A stretch of DNA of 64,000 nucleotides from Halocatena marina (GTDB lineage: Archaea; Halobacteriota; Halobacteria; Halobacteriales; Haloarculaceae), in the NCBI RefSeq assembly GCF_023276375.1, contig NZ_JALLPK010000001.1, positions 2,108,001-2,172,000 of the forward strand, given 5' to 3'. The notes below the pieces were generated by a model that worked only from the letters and a program-made list of their open reading frames with translations, had not been told where the DNA came from and searched no databases. The position numbers and the translations under genes were made by a program. Shown piece by piece: positions 979 to 45,260 of this stretch; positions within the stretch are counted from its first letter, which is position 1, and every line of letters begins with the position of its first letter.

Positions 979-1929
979 TCTTACTTTAATTGATAAAATG
1001 ACATCATTTATCCATAGACCACCATCTATCTGGTGAAATTGGGCAGTTTGGACAAACGGTCAATTATTGTATATTTTCTCTTCCGACCGCATTGAGCGCG
1101 ACGGCACAACGTGTTCGTCGGTGATTGAGTTGGTCCGACCCCCAGAGAGCGTGAACGATATCGGAGAGACGAGCTGTCTCTACTTCATCTGAGTGAATTA
1201 TCCCAGAGACAACCGAGTACCAATCAGTTGTTTCTGAGTAACAGACCCAAACCACACGATTTCCGAGCTACTTCCATCCGTTATAGTAGCTCCGATAGTA
1301 TCTATTGTGTCCATACTATGAAAGATATCGATATAAAGCGTATAAAATTAGGTAGTGTGATAAAGTTGAATGTATAATCACGCATCTATTCAGTTGATGA
1401 TGTCACAGTTGGTCATTGAATCGACAGGGACAGCAAACACCCCTCCGACACTGTCCGTCGATTCGTGGTCTACCGATTACCCGTGCGATTGGATCGATAC
1501 TGGTCCCCGCATCTCCGCTTCGGCCCTCCATTCACATCGGCCATCGATCCCTCGTGGGGCTTGGTTGGCGGCATCATCGTGGCCCGTCGTTCACTGAAGA
1601 ACAGACTCTCCGTCAGCGAGACGATTGGCCGAGAGGAACGGTCAATAGAACATATGCGTGTGAGCATACACGACTCGTGACCGGACAAGAGGCCGTCTTG
1701 GGACACTCATGGAAAATCGTGCGTGCGCCGCTCAGGAACGTATGAGTGCAAAGACGGTGAATCCGGAATCGGATCCCGGCAAGCAATTGAGGATCCCGCG
1801 AGTTGTCGTCTCGGACGTGACTCGGTGCGTTCTATCCTAACTGTTTGAGATTCGTTCGATACGCATGCTATCGCACATCGAAATTCGTCTCCTCAGCACA
1901 ATGACGAACAGGTGTCACGTACAGCTCGT
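979..1929. other. Intergenic stretch with possible gene remnants
   Basis: About 950 bases without a gene I can name. Several short frames show haloarchaeal-like codon use: a 63-codon frame on the minus strand (1064-1255) and overlapping plus-strand frames between 1370 and 1745. None has a recognisable motif, and they overlap one another in different frames. This is the pattern expected of a decayed gene. No hairpin or promoter stands out. Confidence 0.4.
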
Positions 1930-2598
1930 CTAAATATGTGCTACATCGAGAACGATCACCGAGAGATACAACTGTCCGATGCCAGCGAGGATCATAAGCA
2001 CTGTTGCAATTGTCTGAAGGTGTTCGGTATAGCGACTGTAGTGCCACGCATCGTTGCCCACGGCGGCAAGCAGTGTCACTCCAACGAGCGGAAGCGATAC
2101 AGCAAGCGCGTATCCACCGAAAATGAGTCCAGCCTGCACGGGTGGAAACGTTAGCGCTTGTGTGAGGACACCAAGAAGGATTGGTACGACACATCCGGCC
2201 GCAGCAGCAGCGTACCCCGCTCCGAACAGCCCGAACCCGACCACAGATCCAGAGCGTTCGGGAAGCGGGATCCGAAGATCAGGGGTACGATCCATAAGCA
2301 TCAAAACACCGAATACGACAAGCGCAGCGCCAACAAGCGGCTCGAACAGCGGCAAGCGTTCGAGCACTGCTCGTCCTAGCGCAAATCCGACACTACCGAC
2401 AACAACGAGAGTAACAAGGGCGCTCCCAGCAGCGAACAACGCAGGCAAGACGACGCCGGTTGACCGATCAGTATCGGTGTGGCTGAGAAAATACCCGACA
2501 TATCCCGGCAGGAGAGGAAACGCACATGGAGCGAAGAACGTCGCAACACCGCCACTCACCGCGAATATGAACGCGCCAAAGAAGGTCACCGAACTCAT
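1930..2598 (-). CDS. CcdA-like thiol-disulfide membrane transporter
   Basis: A 222-residue polytopic membrane protein with about six hydrophobic segments. The two conserved membrane cysteines of the CcdA/DsbD family are present: one in FAPCAFPLLPGY (Cys25) and one in AAAGCVVPILLGV (Cys136). These proteins pass reducing equivalents across the membrane to extracytoplasmic thioredoxin-like partners. It lies last in a three-gene minus-strand operon, 9 bases after the TlpA-like gene, which is the likely acceptor. The context suggests assembly of copper or heme centres of the respiratory chain. Length matches short CcdA proteins, and the ATG start leaves the first membrane helix intact. Confidence 0.88.
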   Translation of the reverse strand: MSSVTFFGAFIFAVSGGVATFFAPCAFPLLPGYVGYFLSHTDTDRSTGVVLPALFAAGSALVTLVVVGSVGFALGRAVLERLPLFEPLVGAALVVFGVLMLMDRTPDLRIPLPERSGSVVGFGLFGAGYAAAAAGCVVPILLGVLTQALTFPPVQAGLIFGGYALAVSLPLVGVTLLAAVGNDAWHYSRYTEHLQTIATVLMILAGIGQLYLSVIVLDVAHI

Positions 2599-2607
2599 GT
2601 TACGACG

Positions 2608-3132
2608 CTATGTTTCATTCAGGGCCGCCTCAATTTCGGCTCGGATTGTGTCGCTCCTCGCAACGCCTCTATGTCGCCACGTAATCGTTCCATCTGCGTC
2701 AGCAACGGCGATGTAGGGGAGCCCACCAGCTCCGAGCATCGCCATCAGCTCACTCTCGGGATCTAACCCAAGCGTCCAGTGACCATCGTTCTGGTGCCAC
2801 CACATGCGGATGTCCGCACGGGACAGTGTTCCGCCGATCCGTTCGTTTGTCACAGAGATGAATGCGAGGTCATCACCATACGCGTCGTGGAGAGATGCGA
2901 GTCCGCCCATCTGTGCTTTACACGGAGAACACCACGTCGCAAACAGATCAATCACCGTCACGGTGTTTTCAATGGGAACGCTGATTGTTCCCCGATCCGA
3001 TCCGTGGGCATTCATCGTCTCGATTTGCACTGGCAACGCAGTGCCTGCAGGAAGCTCCTGTGCTGCAACCCACGCGCTGCCACCGGTGAGCGACACACCA
3101 GCGATACCGGCTAACAGCTGTCGGCGGTTCAT
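2608..3132 (-). CDS. TlpA-like exported thiol-disulfide oxidoreductase
   Basis: A 174-residue thioredoxin-fold protein with an N-terminal signal (MNRRQLLAGIAGVS then hydrophobic residues) that has an Arg pair as in Tat substrates. The redox motif WCSPC (Cys68, Cys71) sits after a beta strand, as in TlpA/ResA proteins, and the fold's conserved cis-Pro is in GGLPYIAV. It probably acts outside the membrane as a reductant. The start overlaps the end of the SCO gene by 4 bases and ccdA follows after 9 bases, so the three are translationally coupled. The supply of electrons by CcdA is inferred from this order. Confidence 0.87.
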   Translation of the reverse strand: MNRRQLLAGIAGVSLTGGSAWVAAQELPAGTALPVQIETMNAHGSDRGTISVPIENTVTVIDLFATWCSPCKAQMGGLASLHDAYGDDLAFISVTNERIGGTLSRADIRMWWHQNDGHWTLGLDPESELMAMLGAGGLPYIAVADADGTITWRHRGVARSDTIRAEIEAALNET

Positions 3133-3791
3133 CGGAGTTTGGCCAAATCGTCGATAATCGTCTCTTGGTCCGGTGATTTTGTCTTGTAGGCTCGCTCGAC
3201 ATACCCATCAGCGTTAACGAGGAGCGTCAACGGTGTGTGCGTGAACATGTATCCTGACTGCTTTTTTGTGGGAGTTTTCTCGAACATAACGCCGAACTCC
3301 TTTTGGATAATCTGCGTTGCACTCTGCTCCGAGTCGGGTCGTAAGAAGTACCAGTTGCCCGCACCGTCGGCTATGTTCATCTCTTCTGCGTAGGCTTGCA
3401 ACCGTTGGGCGTGATCGCGGGCCGGATCGAACGTAATCGGAAGAAACGTTACCTGATTCGCGTAGCCATTGTTCATCGCGTCTGTCTGAACATTTCTGAG
3501 TGCCGAAATGAGTACCGGACAGATGGTCATGCAGTGGCTGAAAAAGAACGTGATGACAGTCGGTGTATCGACAGTACGTAGAGACACTGATCGAGAATCG
3601 ACCGGAGCCGGAATCGTGACGTCTGGGACGCGTTCACCCCACGCCTGATACGGCACATCGGAGCTGTCGAACTGGCGGTCTGGTTCACCGAGCGTGACGT
3701 TTGGATTTGGGTCGGCAAGACCGAGGCATCCACCAAGTGTTCCAACAGTCCCGATGGTGGCGAGCGATCCGAGAAATATCCGCCTCTTCAT
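3129..3791 (-). CDS. SCO1/SenC family copper-binding lipoprotein
   Basis: A 220-residue SCO family protein. The copper ligands are visible: the CxxxCP motif CMTICP (Cys87, Cys91) and the distal His in FTHTPLTLLV (His185). The N-terminus has two Arg, a hydrophobic stretch and the lipobox LGGC (Cys22), so the mature protein should be a lipid-anchored extracytoplasmic protein. Family members deliver copper to the CuA site of cytochrome oxidase. It is the first gene of an operon with TlpA-like and CcdA-like proteins. The divergent neighbour starts 157 bases away. Confidence 0.9.
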   Translation of the reverse strand: MKRRIFLGSLATIGTVGTLGGCLGLADPNPNVTLGEPDRQFDSSDVPYQAWGERVPDVTIPAPVDSRSVSLRTVDTPTVITFFFSHCMTICPVLISALRNVQTDAMNNGYANQVTFLPITFDPARDHAQRLQAYAEEMNIADGAGNWYFLRPDSEQSATQIIQKEFGVMFEKTPTKKQSGYMFTHTPLTLLVNADGYVERAYKTKSPDQETIIDDLAKLR

Positions 3792-3948
3792 ACATCACTG
3801 CAACAGTCACAAGAATAAGGGCTATTTGGTTCAATTCACGAATCACTGCGGTATTGCTTTCAACAGTTCGATTATTCGGCATCTCCGTTTCGATGATCGT
3901 GCCAGAACGATTAGGTCCAAACCACGAAATCATCAGATTGTGTCAGAA

Positions 3949-4428
3949 ATGCCAAACGGAGCAACTCGACGAGACGTTCTCAAGACAGGCCTCGGTGCAG
4001 CGATGGGAACCATTGCACTCCCGTTGATCAGCCGTCGGGCGGCCGCACATTTCCCCGACGAACTCATGATCGACATCAAACCAGGCTGTGGCCGAAATCC
4101 AATCAATCCGAAGAGTCGGGGGGTCATCCCCGTGACGGTTGCTCGAACCGAATTCGAAAAAGACGGATCACGCGTCGTGTTCGACCCAGCAGAGCGAGCC
4201 GTCCGCTATCGGTTCGGCGCACCCGATGTCGTCGAACAGGGCGGTGGCGCGCGTCCAGTGCACGGCGGACACATCGTCGACGGCGACGATCACGAGATCC
4301 TTGTTCTTCACTTCCCGACACAGGATGCGGGTTTTGACGGTGATGAATCACTCGGGAAACTCCTCTGGGAACGCGACGAGAACGGAGAGCACGGCTACGC
4401 TGGTACAGACCACGTGATAGTTAGATAA
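3949..4428 (+). CDS. Tat-exported single-domain protein (IKPG...NPxSxGVIPV type)
   Basis: A 159-residue protein. Residues 1-33 form a twin-arginine signal (RRDVLKTG, a hydrophobic core, then an Ala-rich end). The rest is one copy of a domain common in secreted bacterial and archaeal proteins, with the hallmarks IDIKPGCGRNPINPKSRGVI near the start and HGGHIVDGDDHEILVLHFPT further on. In larger proteins this domain is an accessory module of unknown function; here it stands alone. I chose the ATG at 3949 because it gives a complete Tat signal; the frame is open further upstream. It is divergent from the SCO operon. Confidence 0.75.
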   Translation: MPNGATRRDVLKTGLGAAMGTIALPLISRRAAAHFPDELMIDIKPGCGRNPINPKSRGVIPVTVARTEFEKDGSRVVFDPAERAVRYRFGAPDVVEQGGGARPVHGGHIVDGDDHEILVLHFPTQDAGFDGDESLGKLLWERDENGEHGYAGTDHVIVR

Positions 4429-4544
4429 GGTTTCATAGCCGCTCGATTACGATGTGACGTATTCTCCACTATTCACTGATGAAATAAATGAGCACGAATA
4501 ACACAGCATAGCGGAGAAGCCGATTAGTTTGAGCGCAACTGCAG

Positions 4545-34683: not shown

Positions 34684-35250
34684 TCAGTGCTCTGGCTGGC
34701 GCTGTGCCAATCCGACGAGATGCGGAAGTTCGTGCACAATGATATCCTCGGTTCCAAGCCGTACGGCGTTCTCGCTTCCTGGAAGGCAGAACACGGGAAC
34801 GTCGTCAACGAGGCCTGCGGTGGCGCGCGTTCCGACAACCCGGGATCCGATTTCTTCGTACGAGAGGGTCCGGAACAGTTCCCCGAAACCAGGAAGCTCC
34901 TTCGAGAACAACGACGAGACAGCCTCAATGGTCACATCGTCTGGCGTAACACCAGTGCCACCCGTTGTGATGATGGCGCCAATTCGTGGATCGTCAGTGT
35001 ACTCATCGATGAGCGACTCGATCGCGCTGTGCTCGTCAGTAACGAGATCCCGCACGACAATACGATGATCGGCTGCTCGAAGGATCGCTTCAATCGTGTC
35101 GCCAGCGGGATCGTCGTCAACCGTCCGTGAAGATGAAATTGTCAGTACTGCCATACCGGGACTGCTAACGTCGTGGTCATGGTGGCCATGGTCGTGGTCA
35201 TGGTGGTCGTCGTGAGCGTGATGATCATGATGGTCGTGTGAGTCGTCCAT
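34684..35250 (-). CDS. MoaB/MogA-type molybdopterin protein with His-rich N-terminus
   Basis: A 188-residue protein. Residues about 33-188 form a MoaB/MogA fold with AVLTISSSRTVDDDPAGDTI, the nucleotide-binding TTGGTGVTPDDVT and FCLPGSENAVRLG. These proteins adenylylate molybdopterin or support molybdenum/tungsten cofactor assembly. Residues 1-30 are an unusual His/Asp-rich run (for example HDHHDHHAHDDHHDHDHGHH) that should bind metal ions. The ATG at 35248-35250 keeps this run. The sulfite-oxidase-type enzyme at 17.5 kb is a possible client. Confidence 0.88.
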   Translation of the reverse strand: MDDSHDHHDHHAHDDHHDHDHGHHDHDVSSPGMAVLTISSSRTVDDDPAGDTIEAILRAADHRIVVRDLVTDEHSAIESLIDEYTDDPRIGAIITTGGTGVTPDDVTIEAVSSLFSKELPGFGELFRTLSYEEIGSRVVGTRATAGLVDDVPVFCLPGSENAVRLGTEDIIVHELPHLVGLAQRQPEH

Positions 35251-35399
35251 ACGTGTCGTTCGATCGTCTCCGTGAAAGTCGTTGGCTGTGGAGCGCCGAT
35301 GGCCGCACGTCCGAACGTTTAGAGACCTCAATTCAAGTGGATATGAACGAGAATTCCTGCGATCAACAGTATTTTGCTCGTAGCCATCCTTCGACGTGT

Positions 35400-36446
35400 A
35401 TGAAGGCTGTGCAGTTCACGGAGCACGGTGATCGGAGCGTACTCTCCTACGATGAGTTCTCAGATCCTGAGATTTCGCCCAACGAGGTACTCATCGATGT
35501 AAAGGCAGCCGCACTGAACCACCTTGACGTGCATACCCGCCGTGGATTGCCGGGCGTCGATTTGGAGATGCCCCATATTCCAGGCAGCGATGCTGCTGGC
35601 GTCATCCGCGAGGTTGGTTCGAACGTGACTCGCTTCGAAGAAGGCGATCACGCGGCCGTCGCGGCAGGGCGCTACTGCGGCGCCTGTGAGTTCTGCCGAC
35701 ACGGACAGGAATCGATGTGCGAGAACTACCATCTCATCGGTGAGCACGTCCGCGGCGTCCACGCGGAACTCGCGGCTGTTCCCGAGGAAAATCTCGTCCC
35801 CGTTCCAGACAATGTTGATTGGTACACCGCCGGGTCGGTGTCACTCGTCTTCCAGACCGCGTGGCGGATGTTGGTTTCCCGAGCCGAACTCACCGCTGGA
35901 GAACGCGTTCTTGTCCTCGGCTCGAGTGGTGGTGTCGGCCATGCAGCGGTCCAGATTGCGGATTACGTTGGTGCAGAGGTGTATGCGACCGCAAGCAGCG
36001 AGGAAAAGCTCGAACACGCACGCGAATGTGGTGCAGACCATTGCATCAACTACGAGGAAGCGTCGTTCAAAAACGAAATCCGTGACCTGACCGACGGACG
36101 AGGCGTCGATGTTGTCGTCGATCACGTCGGACCGGCGACGTGGAATGATTCGATGAAATCCCTTGCGAAGGGCGGCCGACTCGTCACGTGTGGAGCGACG
36201 ACCGGCCCAACGGCTGAGACGAACATCAACCGCGTCTTCTGGAACCAACTACAGATCATCGGCTCCACGATGGCGACGCCAGGGGAGACCGACGACATAC
36301 TCGAACTCGTCTGGGATGGGACGTTCGATCCCCACATTCGAGCGACGCTTCCAATGAGCGAGATCACCCGCGCTCACGAGATGCTCGAAGACCGAGAGGG
36401 ATTCGGTAAGGTCGTCATCGTCCCCGATAGCGAGTATGACGAATAA
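35400..36446 (+). CDS. Zinc-containing MDR family alcohol dehydrogenase/quinone reductase-like
   Basis: A 348-residue medium-chain dehydrogenase/reductase. The structural zinc lobe CGACEFCRHGQESMC is intact. The catalytic-zinc Cys of classical ADHs is replaced by Asn in the ALNHLDVH segment, and the usual GHE is GSD (IPGSDAAGVI). NAD(P) binding is through VLGSSGGVGHAAVQIA. It is therefore probably a zinc-structured reductase without a catalytic zinc; substrate unknown. The ATG at 35400 gives the family start MKAVQFTEHG. Its last 11 bases overlap the next gene. Confidence 0.87.
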   Translation: MKAVQFTEHGDRSVLSYDEFSDPEISPNEVLIDVKAAALNHLDVHTRRGLPGVDLEMPHIPGSDAAGVIREVGSNVTRFEEGDHAAVAAGRYCGACEFCRHGQESMCENYHLIGEHVRGVHAELAAVPEENLVPVPDNVDWYTAGSVSLVFQTAWRMLVSRAELTAGERVLVLGSSGGVGHAAVQIADYVGAEVYATASSEEKLEHARECGADHCINYEEASFKNEIRDLTDGRGVDVVVDHVGPATWNDSMKSLAKGGRLVTCGATTGPTAETNINRVFWNQLQIIGSTMATPGETDDILELVWDGTFDPHIRATLPMSEITRAHEMLEDREGFGKVVIVPDSEYDE

Positions 36447-42082: not shown

Positions 42083-42545
42083 GATTTCGGCGTACATCTG
42101 TTACTCACTAAAACATTGCGTTATTCACATTCACCAACACGTACGAGGTAGAAACACACTATGGAGTACTCGGATATCAGTCAAGAGAGTACAGGACAGA
42201 GGGGTTGGTCAAGCGTGCCTGTCCTGCGGAAGGCAAACAGAGAGTAACGAACTGCCCTTTTGTATCAAATATCTTATGCCGTCTCGTGGTGTTCGATCGA
42301 TGGACAGTTCATCCGATGAGTCAGCTCCAATCAGTAAAAGCGTATCGAAATACGACGCCGAAGGCTGCGATTCGACCGAATTATATCAAAATAATAAAAT
42401 TTATTGTGTCAGTGACTTATGACACCGCAGTAGCGAGTCACCTCAAACAATAGACCGGTCGATTGGGTTGGCTCAGTTTGCTGTCTGTAGCGACTCAGCA
42501 ACCGTGTTTAGGTCAATAAAAAACGACCGACTCACTCAACGGCGA
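42083..42545. other. Intergenic region before the Asn-rich gene array
   Basis: About 460 bases. A 48-codon plus-strand frame from the ATG at 42276 to 42422 encodes a Ser/Asp-rich peptide, with no supporting promoter or family. No terminator-like T run is clear after the last Asn-rich gene. Nothing else is recognisable. Confidence 0.35.
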
Positions 42546-42878
42546 TTATAGGATCGGTATTATGCCGCCGTCATCCAAGAGTCCGACATCAACACTGATT
42601 CCGTCACTGCTGGCGCTGGCGTCAGCGTTAGCGAGATTCGAGTTACTGTTAGTGTTGTCGTTCTCGAGGTTGTTGTTGTTCGTGTTGTTGTTCTCGTTGA
42701 CGATGATTATCGTCGGCTCGTTGGTCGTGTTGTCGGCGTTGTTGTCTGAATTTTTGTTCAGCTTTTTGTCAACGTCGACTTTCTTGACGCTCGGCGACGC
42801 TGCAACAGACCCAACGCCTGCCCCAATCACGCTCAGAAGCATGAGTGCGGCCAACGTAATCGAGATTGTTCTTTTCAT
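42546..42878 (-). CDS. Asn-rich secreted small protein, paralogue 4 of 4
   Basis: A 110-residue protein. A Sec-type signal (MKRTISITLAALMLLSVIGA, cleaved near VAAS) precedes the module KKVDVDKKLNKNSDNNADNT, then a run with NENNNTNNNNLENDNTNSNS and a Ser/Ala/Asp part. The hydrophobic end GLLDDGGIIPIL is longer than in the paralogues. Several N-X-S/T sequons suggest N-glycosylation. I use the ATG that gives MKRT as in the other copies; the frame continues to a GTG at 42893 that overlaps the preceding gene's stop. It is the most diverged copy and last in the operon. Confidence 0.8.
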   Translation of the reverse strand: MKRTISITLAALMLLSVIGAGVGSVAASPSVKKVDVDKKLNKNSDNNADNTTNEPTIIIVNENNNTNNNNLENDNTNSNSNLANADASASSDGISVDVGLLDDGGIIPIL

Positions 42879-42889
42879 GGACATTATAT

Positions 42890-43204
42890 TCACGCGAAGA
42901 CGCGACCAAGGTCGAGACCAAGCTCAAGCCCGGTGCCGCTGGAGCTCGCATTTGCATCAGCAGCGTTCGAGTTGGCGTTCGTGTTGTTGTTCTCGAGGTT
43001 GTTGTTGTTCGTGTTGTTGTTCGCGTTGTCAACGATAATCACGGGATTGTTCGTCGTGTTATCAGCGTTATTATCCTGATTATCGTTGATCTTTTTGTCA
43101 ACGTCGACTTTTTTGATACTCGTCGCTACAGCAGGCCCAGCGCCAGCCCCAATCACGCTCAGAAGCATGAGTGCGGCCAACGTAATATGGATGATTCGTT
43201 TCAT
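42890..43204 (-). CDS. Asn-rich secreted small protein, paralogue 3 of 4
   Basis: A 104-residue protein. The signal MKRIIHITLAALMLLSVIGA ends near VAT. The mature part begins IKKVDVDKKINDNQDNNADN, then has an NPVIIVDNANNNTNNNN segment and a LENNNTNANSNAADANASSS segment, ending with a short amphipathic GLELGLDLG tail. About a third of the mature residues are Asn. There is no Cys. It lies 27 bases after paralogue 2. I do not recognise a named family. Confidence 0.82.
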   Translation of the reverse strand: MKRIIHITLAALMLLSVIGAGAGPAVATSIKKVDVDKKINDNQDNNADNTTNNPVIIVDNANNNTNNNNLENNNTNANSNAADANASSSGTGLELGLDLGRVFA

Positions 43205-43231
43205 TGTTGTAATTGTGTCTTTGTTTAGGAG

Positions 43232-43570
43232 TTATAGTGCAACATCAACACCGAGACCAGTGGAGCTAGCGTTCGCGTCCGCATTCGCAGCGTTCTCGTT
43301 GGCGTTGGTGTTGTTGTTCTCGAGGTTGTTGTCGTTCGTGTTGTTGTTCGCGTTGTCAACAACAATCACAGGGTTGTTCGTCGTGGTGTCGGAGTTGTCG
43401 TCCGAATTTTTGTTCACCTTTTTATCAACATCAACCTTCTTGATTTTCTTGTGCTTCTTGTCGTGATCGTGATCACGATCACACTGCTTCGCTGCAACAG
43501 ACCCAGCGCCCGCCGCAACTACACTCAGGATCATGAGTGCGGCCAACGTAACGCGGATAATTTGTTTCAT
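43232..43570 (-). CDS. Asn-rich secreted small protein, paralogue 2 of 4
   Basis: A 112-residue protein. The signal MKQIIRVTLAALMILSVVAA is followed by an insertion absent from the other copies, a Lys/His/Asp-rich segment with one Cys (CDRDHDHDKKHKKIKK), which could bind metal. Then comes the common module KKVDVDKKVNKNSDDNSD, the NPVIVVDNANNNTNDNN part and an NANENAANADANASS end. It lies 20 bases after paralogue 1. Confidence 0.82.
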   Translation of the reverse strand: MKQIIRVTLAALMILSVVAAGAGSVAAKQCDRDHDHDKKHKKIKKVDVDKKVNKNSDDNSDTTTNNPVIVVDNANNNTNDNNLENNNTNANENAANADANASSTGLGVDVAL

Positions 43571-43590
43571 TGTTGGTAACCAACTAAATT

Positions 43591-43908
43591 TTAGACCGCT
43601 TCCAGAAGGCCAATGTCAATGCCAAGTCCGGTGCTGCTAGAGCTCGCGTTCGCATCAGCAGCGTTCGAGTTGGCGTTCGTGTTGTTGTTCACGAGGTTGT
43701 TGCCGTTCGTGTTGTTGTTCTCATTATCAACAACAATCACGGGATTGTTGGTCGTTGTATCAGAATTGTTATCCTGATTATCATTGATCTTCTTGTCAAC
43801 GTCGACTTTTTTGACGTGCGATGACGCTGCAGCAGGCGCAACGCCGGCACCAACGATCATGCTCAGAAGCATGAGAGCGGCCAACGTAGCGTGGATAGTT
43901 CGTTTCAT
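43591..43908 (-). CDS. Asn-rich secreted small protein, paralogue 1 of 4
   Basis: A 105-residue protein, first in the operon. The signal MKRTIHATLAALMLLSMIVG ends near APAAAS. The mature part is VKKVDVDKKINDNQDNNSD, an NPVIVVDNENNNTNGNN segment and an NNNTNANSNAADANASSSS segment, with a GLGIDIGLLEAV end. The ATG at 43906-43908 aligns with the other copies; the open frame continues upstream without similarity. A minus-strand TATA box at 44021-44031 would give a leader of about 90 bases. Confidence 0.82.
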   Translation of the reverse strand: MKRTIHATLAALMLLSMIVGAGVAPAAASSHVKKVDVDKKINDNQDNNSDTTTNNPVIVVDNENNNTNGNNLVNNNTNANSNAADANASSSSTGLGIDIGLLEAV

Positions 43909-44020
43909 GGTTGTTGATTTGGTCTGGGAGAGGATCACACCAAGGTCAATAACGCCCACAGAGTTTGTCGGCGGTCGGTGTGTCACTATCCCAGTGCATC
44001 CCCATGTTCAAACAGGGTTA

Positions 44021-44031
44021 CTATAAATATT
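44021..44031 (-). promoter_or_regulatory. TATA box of the Asn-rich gene operon
   Basis: Read on minus, the sequence AATATTTATAG forms a strong TATA element, about 115-120 bases upstream of the first Asn-rich gene ATG at 43908. It implies transcription starting near 43997 and a 5' leader of about 90 bases, which is long for a haloarchaeon. Confidence 0.4.
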
Positions 44032-44265
44032 GTCCAAGATTTAGATATAGAAAGAAGTCTAAGATGAATTATGTATATATTGAGTTGTCAATCGCCGCTA
44101 CGTCCTTCGATAATAACCGAATTAGGAGCTATTATTAACAAATCTATATGAGTTCATTATAGTTGGTAGTATGATTATCGAGAGAGAATGAAGTCGCTAT
44201 CAACACATCAGTAAAAGATGAGCGGTTAAACCAGGACGACACACCACAGTGGGTGTTTGCTTCGA

Positions 44266-44373
44266 TCAAATCCTTCTCACATCTTCCAGCACGACTTTTG
44301 AGTAAACCGGCGTAGTGCCGTTGCCGGGCCACGGTGTCTCCGCCTTCCCCGCTGTTCCCGCTTGAGCGACGTT
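44266..44373 (-). pseudogene. Possible C-terminal remnant of a transposase
   Basis: One minus-strand frame reads NVAQAGTAGKAETPWPGNGT and on to a TGA. The AGTAGKAETP-like stretch resembles, from memory, C-terminal tails of haloarchaeal TnpB-type proteins. It has no start or catalytic region. The same bases are also open in a second frame, so the call is weak. Confidence 0.3.
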
Positions 44374-44828
44374 CCACGAGCTAGTTCGCAGCGCTGATCA
44401 TCATATTCTTTCAATCAACCGCTCAGACGATGGAGTAGTTCGTGCGTGTGGCAACCAAACGATCCGTTGACCGCACGATACACAATGAGGACACGTCAGT
44501 GTCAATATTGAATATCTTCACATCACATTTCTAATAGTTAATCTAGCAGTCACCGCAGACGTTTTCTTGTATAATTGGATTCGTCGGTGACAGCACGCCG
44601 GTGAAGGTTCTCTCTTATTGGACTATCGTCCGACCCAGCTAATCAACTAAAGAACCTGTCGCTTTGTGCTCGAAGAATTATGAAATTCCAAACACAACAA
44701 TTCCTTTCACTATCCGTTTATTTAATTATGTTGGATGCAATACTGCATACGATGTATTAGTATATTGTGCGTAAATAATGTCACATGGTATGAAAAATGT
44801 TTAATCTGGGTGCGAGGAGACCTGATGT

Positions 44829-45260
44829 ATGGGAACGAACACAGCACTTGGAACACAAGGGCCGGCATCGTTGATTCTTATTCGACTTTTAGTAGGAGGC
44901 GTATTTCTCTCCGAAGGAGTTCAAAAGCTCATTTTTCCAGGGGTTCTTGGAGCTGAACGCTTTGCCCACCTTGGATTTCCCGTTCCGGGACTCACCGCCA
45001 CAGCCATTGGCACGATCGAAATTGTCGCAGGCGCGGCAGTTCTCCTGGGATTGGCGACACGTCTAGCCGCGCTCTTTCTGTTAGTGATCGCAATTGTTGC
45101 GATCATTACAACGAAAGTCCCGATTTTACTGGGACACAGCGTTTGGGTTTTCCCACTCGAGGAGAGTAATCGCTACGGTATGTGGGCGTTTCTCCACGCA
45201 TGGCGCGGAGATATCGCAATGTTGCTCGGCTCACTCTACTTGCTCATTGCCATCGACTAA
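44829..45260 (+). CDS. DoxX family membrane protein
   Basis: A 143-residue protein with four hydrophobic segments in the DoxX pattern: LIRLLVGGVFLSEGVQKLIF, then the FAHLGFPVPG loop, EIVAGAAVLLGLATRLAALF and a last helix after HAWRGDIAMLLG. DoxX proteins are widespread and of mixed roles, including thiosulfate:quinone oxidoreductase subunits and redox membrane complexes. No partner gene is adjacent, so the role is open. Confidence 0.88.
   Translation: MGTNTALGTQGPASLILIRLLVGGVFLSEGVQKLIFPGVLGAERFAHLGFPVPGLTATAIGTIEIVAGAAVLLGLATRLAALFLLVIAIVAIITTKVPILLGHSVWVFPLEESNRYGMWAFLHAWRGDIAMLLGSLYLLIAID

Follow-up and report, generated by a model that had tools for sequence, protein, structure and literature searches.

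Four tandem genes for small secreted asparagine-rich proteins in Halocatena marina belong to a lineage-specific family and lie behind a putative hairpin leader

The minus strand of a 64,000-nucleotide stretch of the Halocatena marina genome (contig NZ_JALLPK010000001.1, positions 2,108,001 to 2,172,000; the window) carries, from 43908 to 42546, four intact small open reading frames (ORFs) in tandem, head to tail, with 20, 27 and 11 bp between consecutive genes. The genes of this array, for small secreted asparagine-rich proteins, are termed N1 to N4. An earlier note on the same DNA had proposed four tandem paralogues whose products might form a glycosylated fibre; the four paralogues were borne out. 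Three things escaped that note: the array belongs to a lineage-specific family with several loci, its position is conserved, and a structured leader lies upstream of it. The paralogy, purifying selection on the Asn-rich core, the conserved locus, the leader hairpin and the lineage restriction were all supported by computation. Our preferred reading, put forward tentatively at a probability of about 0.45, is that N1 to N4 form an operon under the structured leader, through which a differentiating lineage makes more of its disordered, secreted surface peptides. The genes and a putative downstream signal are as follows.

43591..43908, minus strand: N1, the first gene, 105 amino acids (aa), with Sec-like signal, KKVDVDKK, Asn-rich core and GLGIDIGLL end; based on the ORF and paralogue conservation
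43232..43570, minus strand: N2, 112 aa, with a Cys and a His/Asp/Lys insert behind the signal
42890..43204, minus strand: N3, 104 aa; based on the ORF and paralogue comparison
42546..42878, minus strand: N4, the last gene, 110 aa; based on the ORF and paralogue comparison
42518..42523, minus strand: run of six T 3' of N4, a possible terminator judged from the sequence

All four proteins had the same layout: a Sec-like signal came first, KKVDVDKK and the Asn-rich core followed, and the chain closed with a short amphipathic stretch, for example GLGIDIGLL. The signals, as judged by eye and not by a signal-peptide program, were hydrophobic and ended near A-x-A, in support of the signal peptide previously assigned to each protein, and the KKVDVDKK block was found in four of four. 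The mature chain, described before as dominated by Asn, contained 24-29% of this residue, mostly in the core. The extra His/Asp/Lys insert with a Cys that had been reported for the second copy was present in N2 but was not unique to it, similar inserts being found in two further genomic copies (L007 and L008). In agreement with the statement that no family could be recognised, no Pfam or NCBIfam model scored over its cut-off with N1 to N4; the best score of TIGR04207 (haloarchaeal surface glycoprotein signal) was 22.8 bits, for N2, below the cut-off of 24.6.

Differences among eight genomic paralogues at the three codon positions were 0.26, 0.19 and 0.43. Within the Asn core of N1 to N4 (alignment columns 44-80), nonsynonymous divergence (dN) was 0.06-0.19 compared to a synonymous divergence (dS) of 0.60-2.08, with one pair saturated. 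These two results indicate that N1 to N4 behave as real genes with a frame under protein-coding constraint, and the Asn core is under purifying selection. The signal gave dN values of 0.19-0.28, higher than most core values, and the C-terminus was variable, consistent with the shared middle and divergent ends noted earlier. In a tree of the eight paralogues N1 to N4 formed one group, within which N1 paired with N3 and N2 with N4 (supports 0.96, 0.87 and 0.85); this grouping points to the local duplication of a unit of two genes. The genome of the window contained nine Asn-type members, namely N1 to N4, four singletons and one fused gene. Eight were found, at identical coordinates, in a second assembly (G097), which is of the same species and so is not independent of the first.

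The alternating N-x-N pattern was commoner than in shuffles of the same chain for all four mature parts (10 to 123 of 5000 shuffles reached it). This excess and the strong conservation of the core would suit an amyloid-like or glycosylated extracellular fibre, in which the N-x-N core stacks as a cross-beta ladder and glycans sit on the sequons. The many N-X-T/S sequons claimed in the earlier note did not hold up, since each protein had two to four, a number within chance (1741 to 4429 of 5000 shuffles of the mature chain were as high), and the support for glycosylation is limited to one widely conserved sequon column, kept in seven of the eight genomic paralogues. Searches of Pfam and NCBIfam with N1 to N4 gave no curlin repeat or other known amyloid domain over its cut-off, and no curlin-type model was listed. 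AlphaFold2 predicted one helix (the signal) and no strands for a single chain, using eight Asn-type rows, and no assembly genes were seen beside the array, though none were searched for. A fibre was judged to be unlikely. The mean predicted local distance difference test (pLDDT) score was 53; such low confidence fits a disordered Asn-type chain that either orders upon assembly or never does, and N1 to N4 are probably unfolded, or intrinsically disordered.

Upstream of N1, two further elements were found.

43924..43994, minus strand: hairpin of the leader, CUGGGA...UCCCAG, whose 3' end is 15 nt from the N1 start codon; fold z-score -4.4, with 0 of 200 shuffles as low
44022..44027, minus strand: TATA-like box (TTTATA), 32-33 nt before the stem, an offset also seen in other leaders

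This combination of TATA-like box and hairpin occurred once in the array, before N1, and was not found before N2, N3 or N4. A predicted hairpin leader (CUGGG...CCCAG) that follows a TATA box by some 31 nt on promoter-proximal members of the family seems to be new. When 32 upstream regions of family members were read (31 plus L014), 20 were chosen as leaders by a shared layout: a TATA-like box, approximately 31 nt, CTGG or CTGC, and a complementary CCAG or GCAG 7-19 nt before the ATG. The 12 regions without it were those of N2 to N4, a Pro-Thr-fused gene, six genes of a type with a VVNDNDLVDVD unit and two genes of G005, one of the other species described below. The TATA-like box was at an offset of 28-33 nt from the stem in 18 leaders of the 20; in one exception the rule had picked an inner start, and the other leader was longer than the rule permits. 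A start of the mRNA at the hairpin is inferred from this distance.

Each of the 20 leaders folded as a single hairpin, with a mean z-score of -2.7 (range -0.7 to -4.8; 200 shuffles each). Arms were then swapped between leaders, because a MAFFT alignment of all leaders left the arms unaligned. With the four outer pairs removed, own arms paired at -17.6 kcal/mol on average compared to -12.2 kcal/mol for swapped arms, and 0 of 20,000 re-pairings were as good. Shorter arms gave -14.4 versus -9.4 kcal/mol, and removal of three G001 orthologues from this second comparison again left 0 of 20,000. Pairing is not explained by composition, since letter-shuffled arms showed hardly any difference between own and swapped (-8.9 versus -8.3 kcal/mol). 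Of the changes in three orthologous leader pairs from G001 and G003, one was compensatory (C-G to U-A), two altered one side and kept pairing, and one broke it. In an alignment of six leaders 94% of cells paired, with a covariation score that was reached by 3 of 500 shuffles.

The element might instead work in DNA, as an operator or attenuator, rather than as an mRNA leader. The nearly invariant outer CTGGG/CCCAG would be expected of such a site, and a transcript starting at the hairpin is itself a deduction. The inner arms covary, however, loop lengths vary widely and none of the leaders listed has a run of T behind the stem, all of which make a DNA element very unlikely in our estimation.

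The specificity of the hairpin was assessed by several searches. A CTGG...CCAG rule was satisfied by 17 of the 20 chosen leaders, a count that is circular in that the leaders were picked by this very motif, by 1 of the 12 other family upstream regions and by 1 of 229 controls. A strict hairpin pattern was found at 35 places in seven genomes, compared to two for the reversed pattern; of the 30 that were read, 11 preceded family members and had a TATA-like box, and the other 19, by eye, had neither. A measure based on spanning pairs was dropped, as control upstream regions passed it (98 of 230 at a loose cut and 28 of 229 at a strict cut). A covariance model built from six Asp-type leaders (R1) recovered its training set and otherwise only hits at E 0.4 or higher in whole genomes, and was too sequence-bound for a regulon survey. 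An Rfam cmscan of 42400-44900 gave no match over the leader; the single match at E up to 1 lay among the coding sequences of the array and scored well short of its gathering threshold. In Haloferax volcanii 72% of transcripts are leaderless, and control by structured leaders is called untypical in haloarchaea in the part of the source available (PMC4983044). Control through a covarying hairpin in the leader, linked with a single class of secreted proteins, would be uncommon in this group.

The position of the array was compared between species by means of two flanking genes.

35238..36446, plus strand: zinc-type dehydrogenase / quinone oxidoreductase (QOR; PF00107, PF08240), a syntenic marker
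44829..45260, plus strand: DoxX-family gene (PF07681), a syntenic marker, with orthologues beside peptide genes in five other species

The window species belongs to the same genus as Halocatena and Actinarchaeum, for which seven genomes were available. Of the other species, G001 was taken as Actinarchaeum halophilum YIM 93972, G003 as YIM A00013, G004 as Halocatena pleomorpha and G005 as YIM A00010. In four of the five (G001, G002, G003 and G005) the order was QOR, peptide, DoxX, peptide, with the same relative strands; in G004 the peptide gene found was the one past DoxX. The Asn array fills the first peptide slot, with QOR on the plus strand, the array on the minus strand and DoxX on the plus strand, although other genes, including an EIIC-type permease, a P450 and a carboxypeptidase-like protein, separate QOR from the array in the window. 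A salactin gene (PF25229; E 3e-149 for G002) lay between DoxX and the second peptide gene in G001, G002, G003 and G004; these actin-like genes are at L096:7024-8082, L099:5695-6756, L102:6455-7459 and L105:6477-7472. Among 15 QOR loci of other genera no Asp/Asn-rich secreted ORF was present within the locus. DoxX failed as a marker of empty sites, its matches at E 1e-20 being limited to the genus.

The peptides of the other five species were shorter; they had the signal of the Asn-type and a mature part rich in Asp (A2), and the Asp-type was present in five of five. Two of these species also had a Cys-rich form with a DVDVDV run. The genes for the secreted Cys-rich proteins with a DVDVDVDV run (L102:8300-8689 and L105:8327-8710) occupied the same slot as the Asn array, and their leader hairpin had CTGC/GCAG in place of CTGG/CCAG. 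A third type in the genus contained one or two copies of a VVNDNDLVDVD...NVLG unit, for which AlphaFold predicted the signal helix alone (pLDDT 57). Two-unit and one-unit genes of this VVNDNDLVDVD...NISTNVLG type adjoined each other (L098:5849-6933, L104:5955-7034 and L089:5945-6923). Signal peptides of the Asn-type and A2 aligned across 29 columns (hhalign E 4e-14), and the two types had locus, orientation and leader hairpin in common. A mature-only profile comparison was no better than reversed controls. Since the mature parts gave no match, kinship of the Asn- and Asp-types is drawn from signal, locus and leader.

A conserved signal and leader before mature parts that are unrelated between types is also what would be expected if the proteins were precursors of secreted signalling or antimicrobial peptides with an exchangeable mature part, perhaps taken up by a BldK-like oligopeptide importer. 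Peptide import has been tied to differentiation, a BldK-like oligopeptide importer being linked to aerial growth in the available part of PMC10067837. Against this, purifying selection acts on the Asn-type core, which has changed less than the signal; among the ten neighbours searched, no gene for immunity, processing or export was noticed; and a signal does not need several near-identical genes. We give this explanation little credence.

Close relatives of the array were found only in the Halocatena/Actinarchaeum genus. When an Asp-type profile was compared with 146 genomes of the taxonomic family, it matched seven of the seven genus genomes and, weakly, eight others, always within open frames of at least 315 aa. 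The Asn profile, compared with 391 genomes of the class, matched five genus genomes and four others weakly, of which two were parts of long surface-type proteins and two were small secreted proteins (L146 and L147). A scan of genome contigs with the Asn profile gave no match; with the Asp profile it gave eight loci, every one in strains of the genus. No Asn-type relative was found in plasmid and viral collections, nor an Asp-type relative in plasmids. Pfam searches with eleven Asp-type relatives found nothing convincing (best E 0.003). A match of the Asn profile in the PDB (SAKe6BR, E 2e-4) was attributed to composition, as no stretch passed by itself.

DNDG is a calcium-loop-like string. Its presence in many Asp-types, whose mature part is about one third Asp, would fit a matrix without ordered assembly whose Asp/Asn-rich chains retain either water or ions (Ca2+ or Mg2+), and Ca2+ binding has been suggested for Asp-rich gained proteins (PMC10067837, in the part available). 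Ions are not bound by Asn in the way they are by Asp, however, and the Asn-type is without DNDG, which leaves such a matrix quite unlikely as the role of N1 to N4.

In the preferred reading of a dosage operon for surface peptides, N1 to N4 would be transcribed together from a single promoter, with an mRNA beginning at the hairpin leader. The result would be a raised dose of small, Sec-exported, disordered Asn-rich peptides of an Asp/Asn-rich family specific to the Halocatena/Actinarchaeum lineage. The exported peptides would stay at the cell surface or in a matrix and might coat differentiating cells (hyphae, spores) by self-association via the N-x-N core and the amphipathic C-terminus, and the leader may control how long an mRNA needed at one growth stage lasts or how it is translated. 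The lineage fits a developmental role, in that Halocatena pleomorpha, YIM 93972, YIM A00010 and YIM A00013 are reported to form hyphae or mycelia, and spores have also been reported (PMC10067837). According to the available part of the same 2023 report of archaeal hyphae and spores, the mechanism is still to be elucidated, and many genes gained in the hyphal clade encode predicted transmembrane or secreted proteins, several with Asp-rich repeats. Those proteins resemble the present family in lineage, secretion and Asp-rich repeats; that part names no member of the family and no small coat peptide, and the word asparagine occurs in it 0 times. A literature search gave no report of asparagine-rich signal-peptide proteins in haloarchaea, and among the matches listed for archaeal asparagine-rich functional amyloid none was about haloarchaea by title. 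As the family is lineage-specific, secreted, multi-copy and, in four species, near a salactin gene, it offers concrete genes for the study of archaeal differentiation.

By analogy, such a coat would act like rodlins or chaplins, a comparison that implies no kinship. The rodlins RdlA and RdlB of Streptomyces are small secreted paralogues, with precursors of 131 and 133 aa, that are disordered in solution (PMC5314377, in the part available). The likeness lies in small paralogues with a Sec-like signal and predicted disorder, in a lineage reported to form hyphae and spores. Chaplins occur as short and long forms. They are likewise multi-copy small secreted proteins of a hyphal organism, and the one- and two-unit VVNDNDLVDVD forms stand side by side. 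A search with PF03777 (chaplin) matched zero of seven genus genomes, but also zero of 14 control genomes, and the model was not listed for N1 to N4 even at E 1.

Several observations weigh against the preferred reading. Peptides of the N1 to N4 type are very hydrophilic, unlike chaplins. Neither the window nor the G005 locus had a salactin gene, and a single function for the Asn- and Asp-types is an assumption, since their mature parts cannot be aligned. In the six-leader alignment, pairs changed on both sides were no commoner than in shuffles. The window species was the first branch inside the genus in a QOR tree (support 0.83) and so may or may not form hyphae itself; the outgroups G058 and G017, poorly extracted proteins with long branches, were retained with no weight placed on them. 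Chaplins are described as hydrophobic in the available part of PMC5314377, and the Halocatena/Actinarchaeum peptides are Asp/Asn-rich.

Outside the genus, L146, L147 (placed with the Natrialbaceae by similarity) and plasmid relatives in Natronococcus sp. AD-5, Haloterrigena sp. KLK7, Natronorubrum bangense and N. aibiense, all Natrialbaceae (L229-L231 are named), encode small MKR-signal proteins, most of them Gln/Asn-rich and partly in tandem. The genes are at L146:1501, L147 (minus strand, two copies), L229:2501, L230:1501 and L231:2142, with similar sequence further upstream. They resemble the Asn-type in an MKR-type signal, partial tandem arrangement, a low-complexity mature part and a leader hairpin before the start codon, and differ in being longer and Gln-rich, with a stem start of GGG[CU]A-A-CG that has a bulged A; no TATA box of the Halocatena form was seen in their leaders. 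The signals aligned (profile E 3e-7) and the mature parts did not. A long hairpin (GGG[CU]AAC...) ended 9-15 nt before the ATG in six of the eight genes read, the N. aibiense gene and the second N. bangense gene having no clear hairpin. Own arms gave -22.2 kcal/mol compared to -16.4 kcal/mol when swapped, with 4 of 720 permutations as low; the L229 arm was cut short, and some permutations amount to the same pairing, as the tandem leaders L147a and L147b are nearly identical. A broader proposal, which we consider to lie on the unlikely side, is that a cassette of 5' mRNA hairpin and MKR-type signal is reused in at least two families, Halocatena/Actinarchaeum and Natrialbaceae, for unrelated low-complexity, self-associating surface proteins. 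In the hyphal lineage these would coat hyphae and spores, as archaeal counterparts of chaplins and rodlins that arose independently, and the RNA hairpin would act as a developmental or salt-sensing switch.

Finally, further members of the family were located in the genome of the window. One of the four singleton Asn-type genes lay on a 64-kb contig (C5), just past a ParA-like gene (L090:5454-7870); this contig, which also carried two one-unit VVNDNDLVDVD copies, was seemingly absent from the second assembly. The fused gene (L091:5606-6379) encoded an Asn-rich module joined to a long repeat of Pro and Thr and to a C-terminal part for which Pfam gave no match, and the leader of this gene also contained a long hairpin, without CTGG/CCAG. 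Two other singletons (L086:11063-11701 and L087:213-1031) border a stretch of further protein genes, whose products we take to resemble the gas-vesicle proteins GvpF/L.
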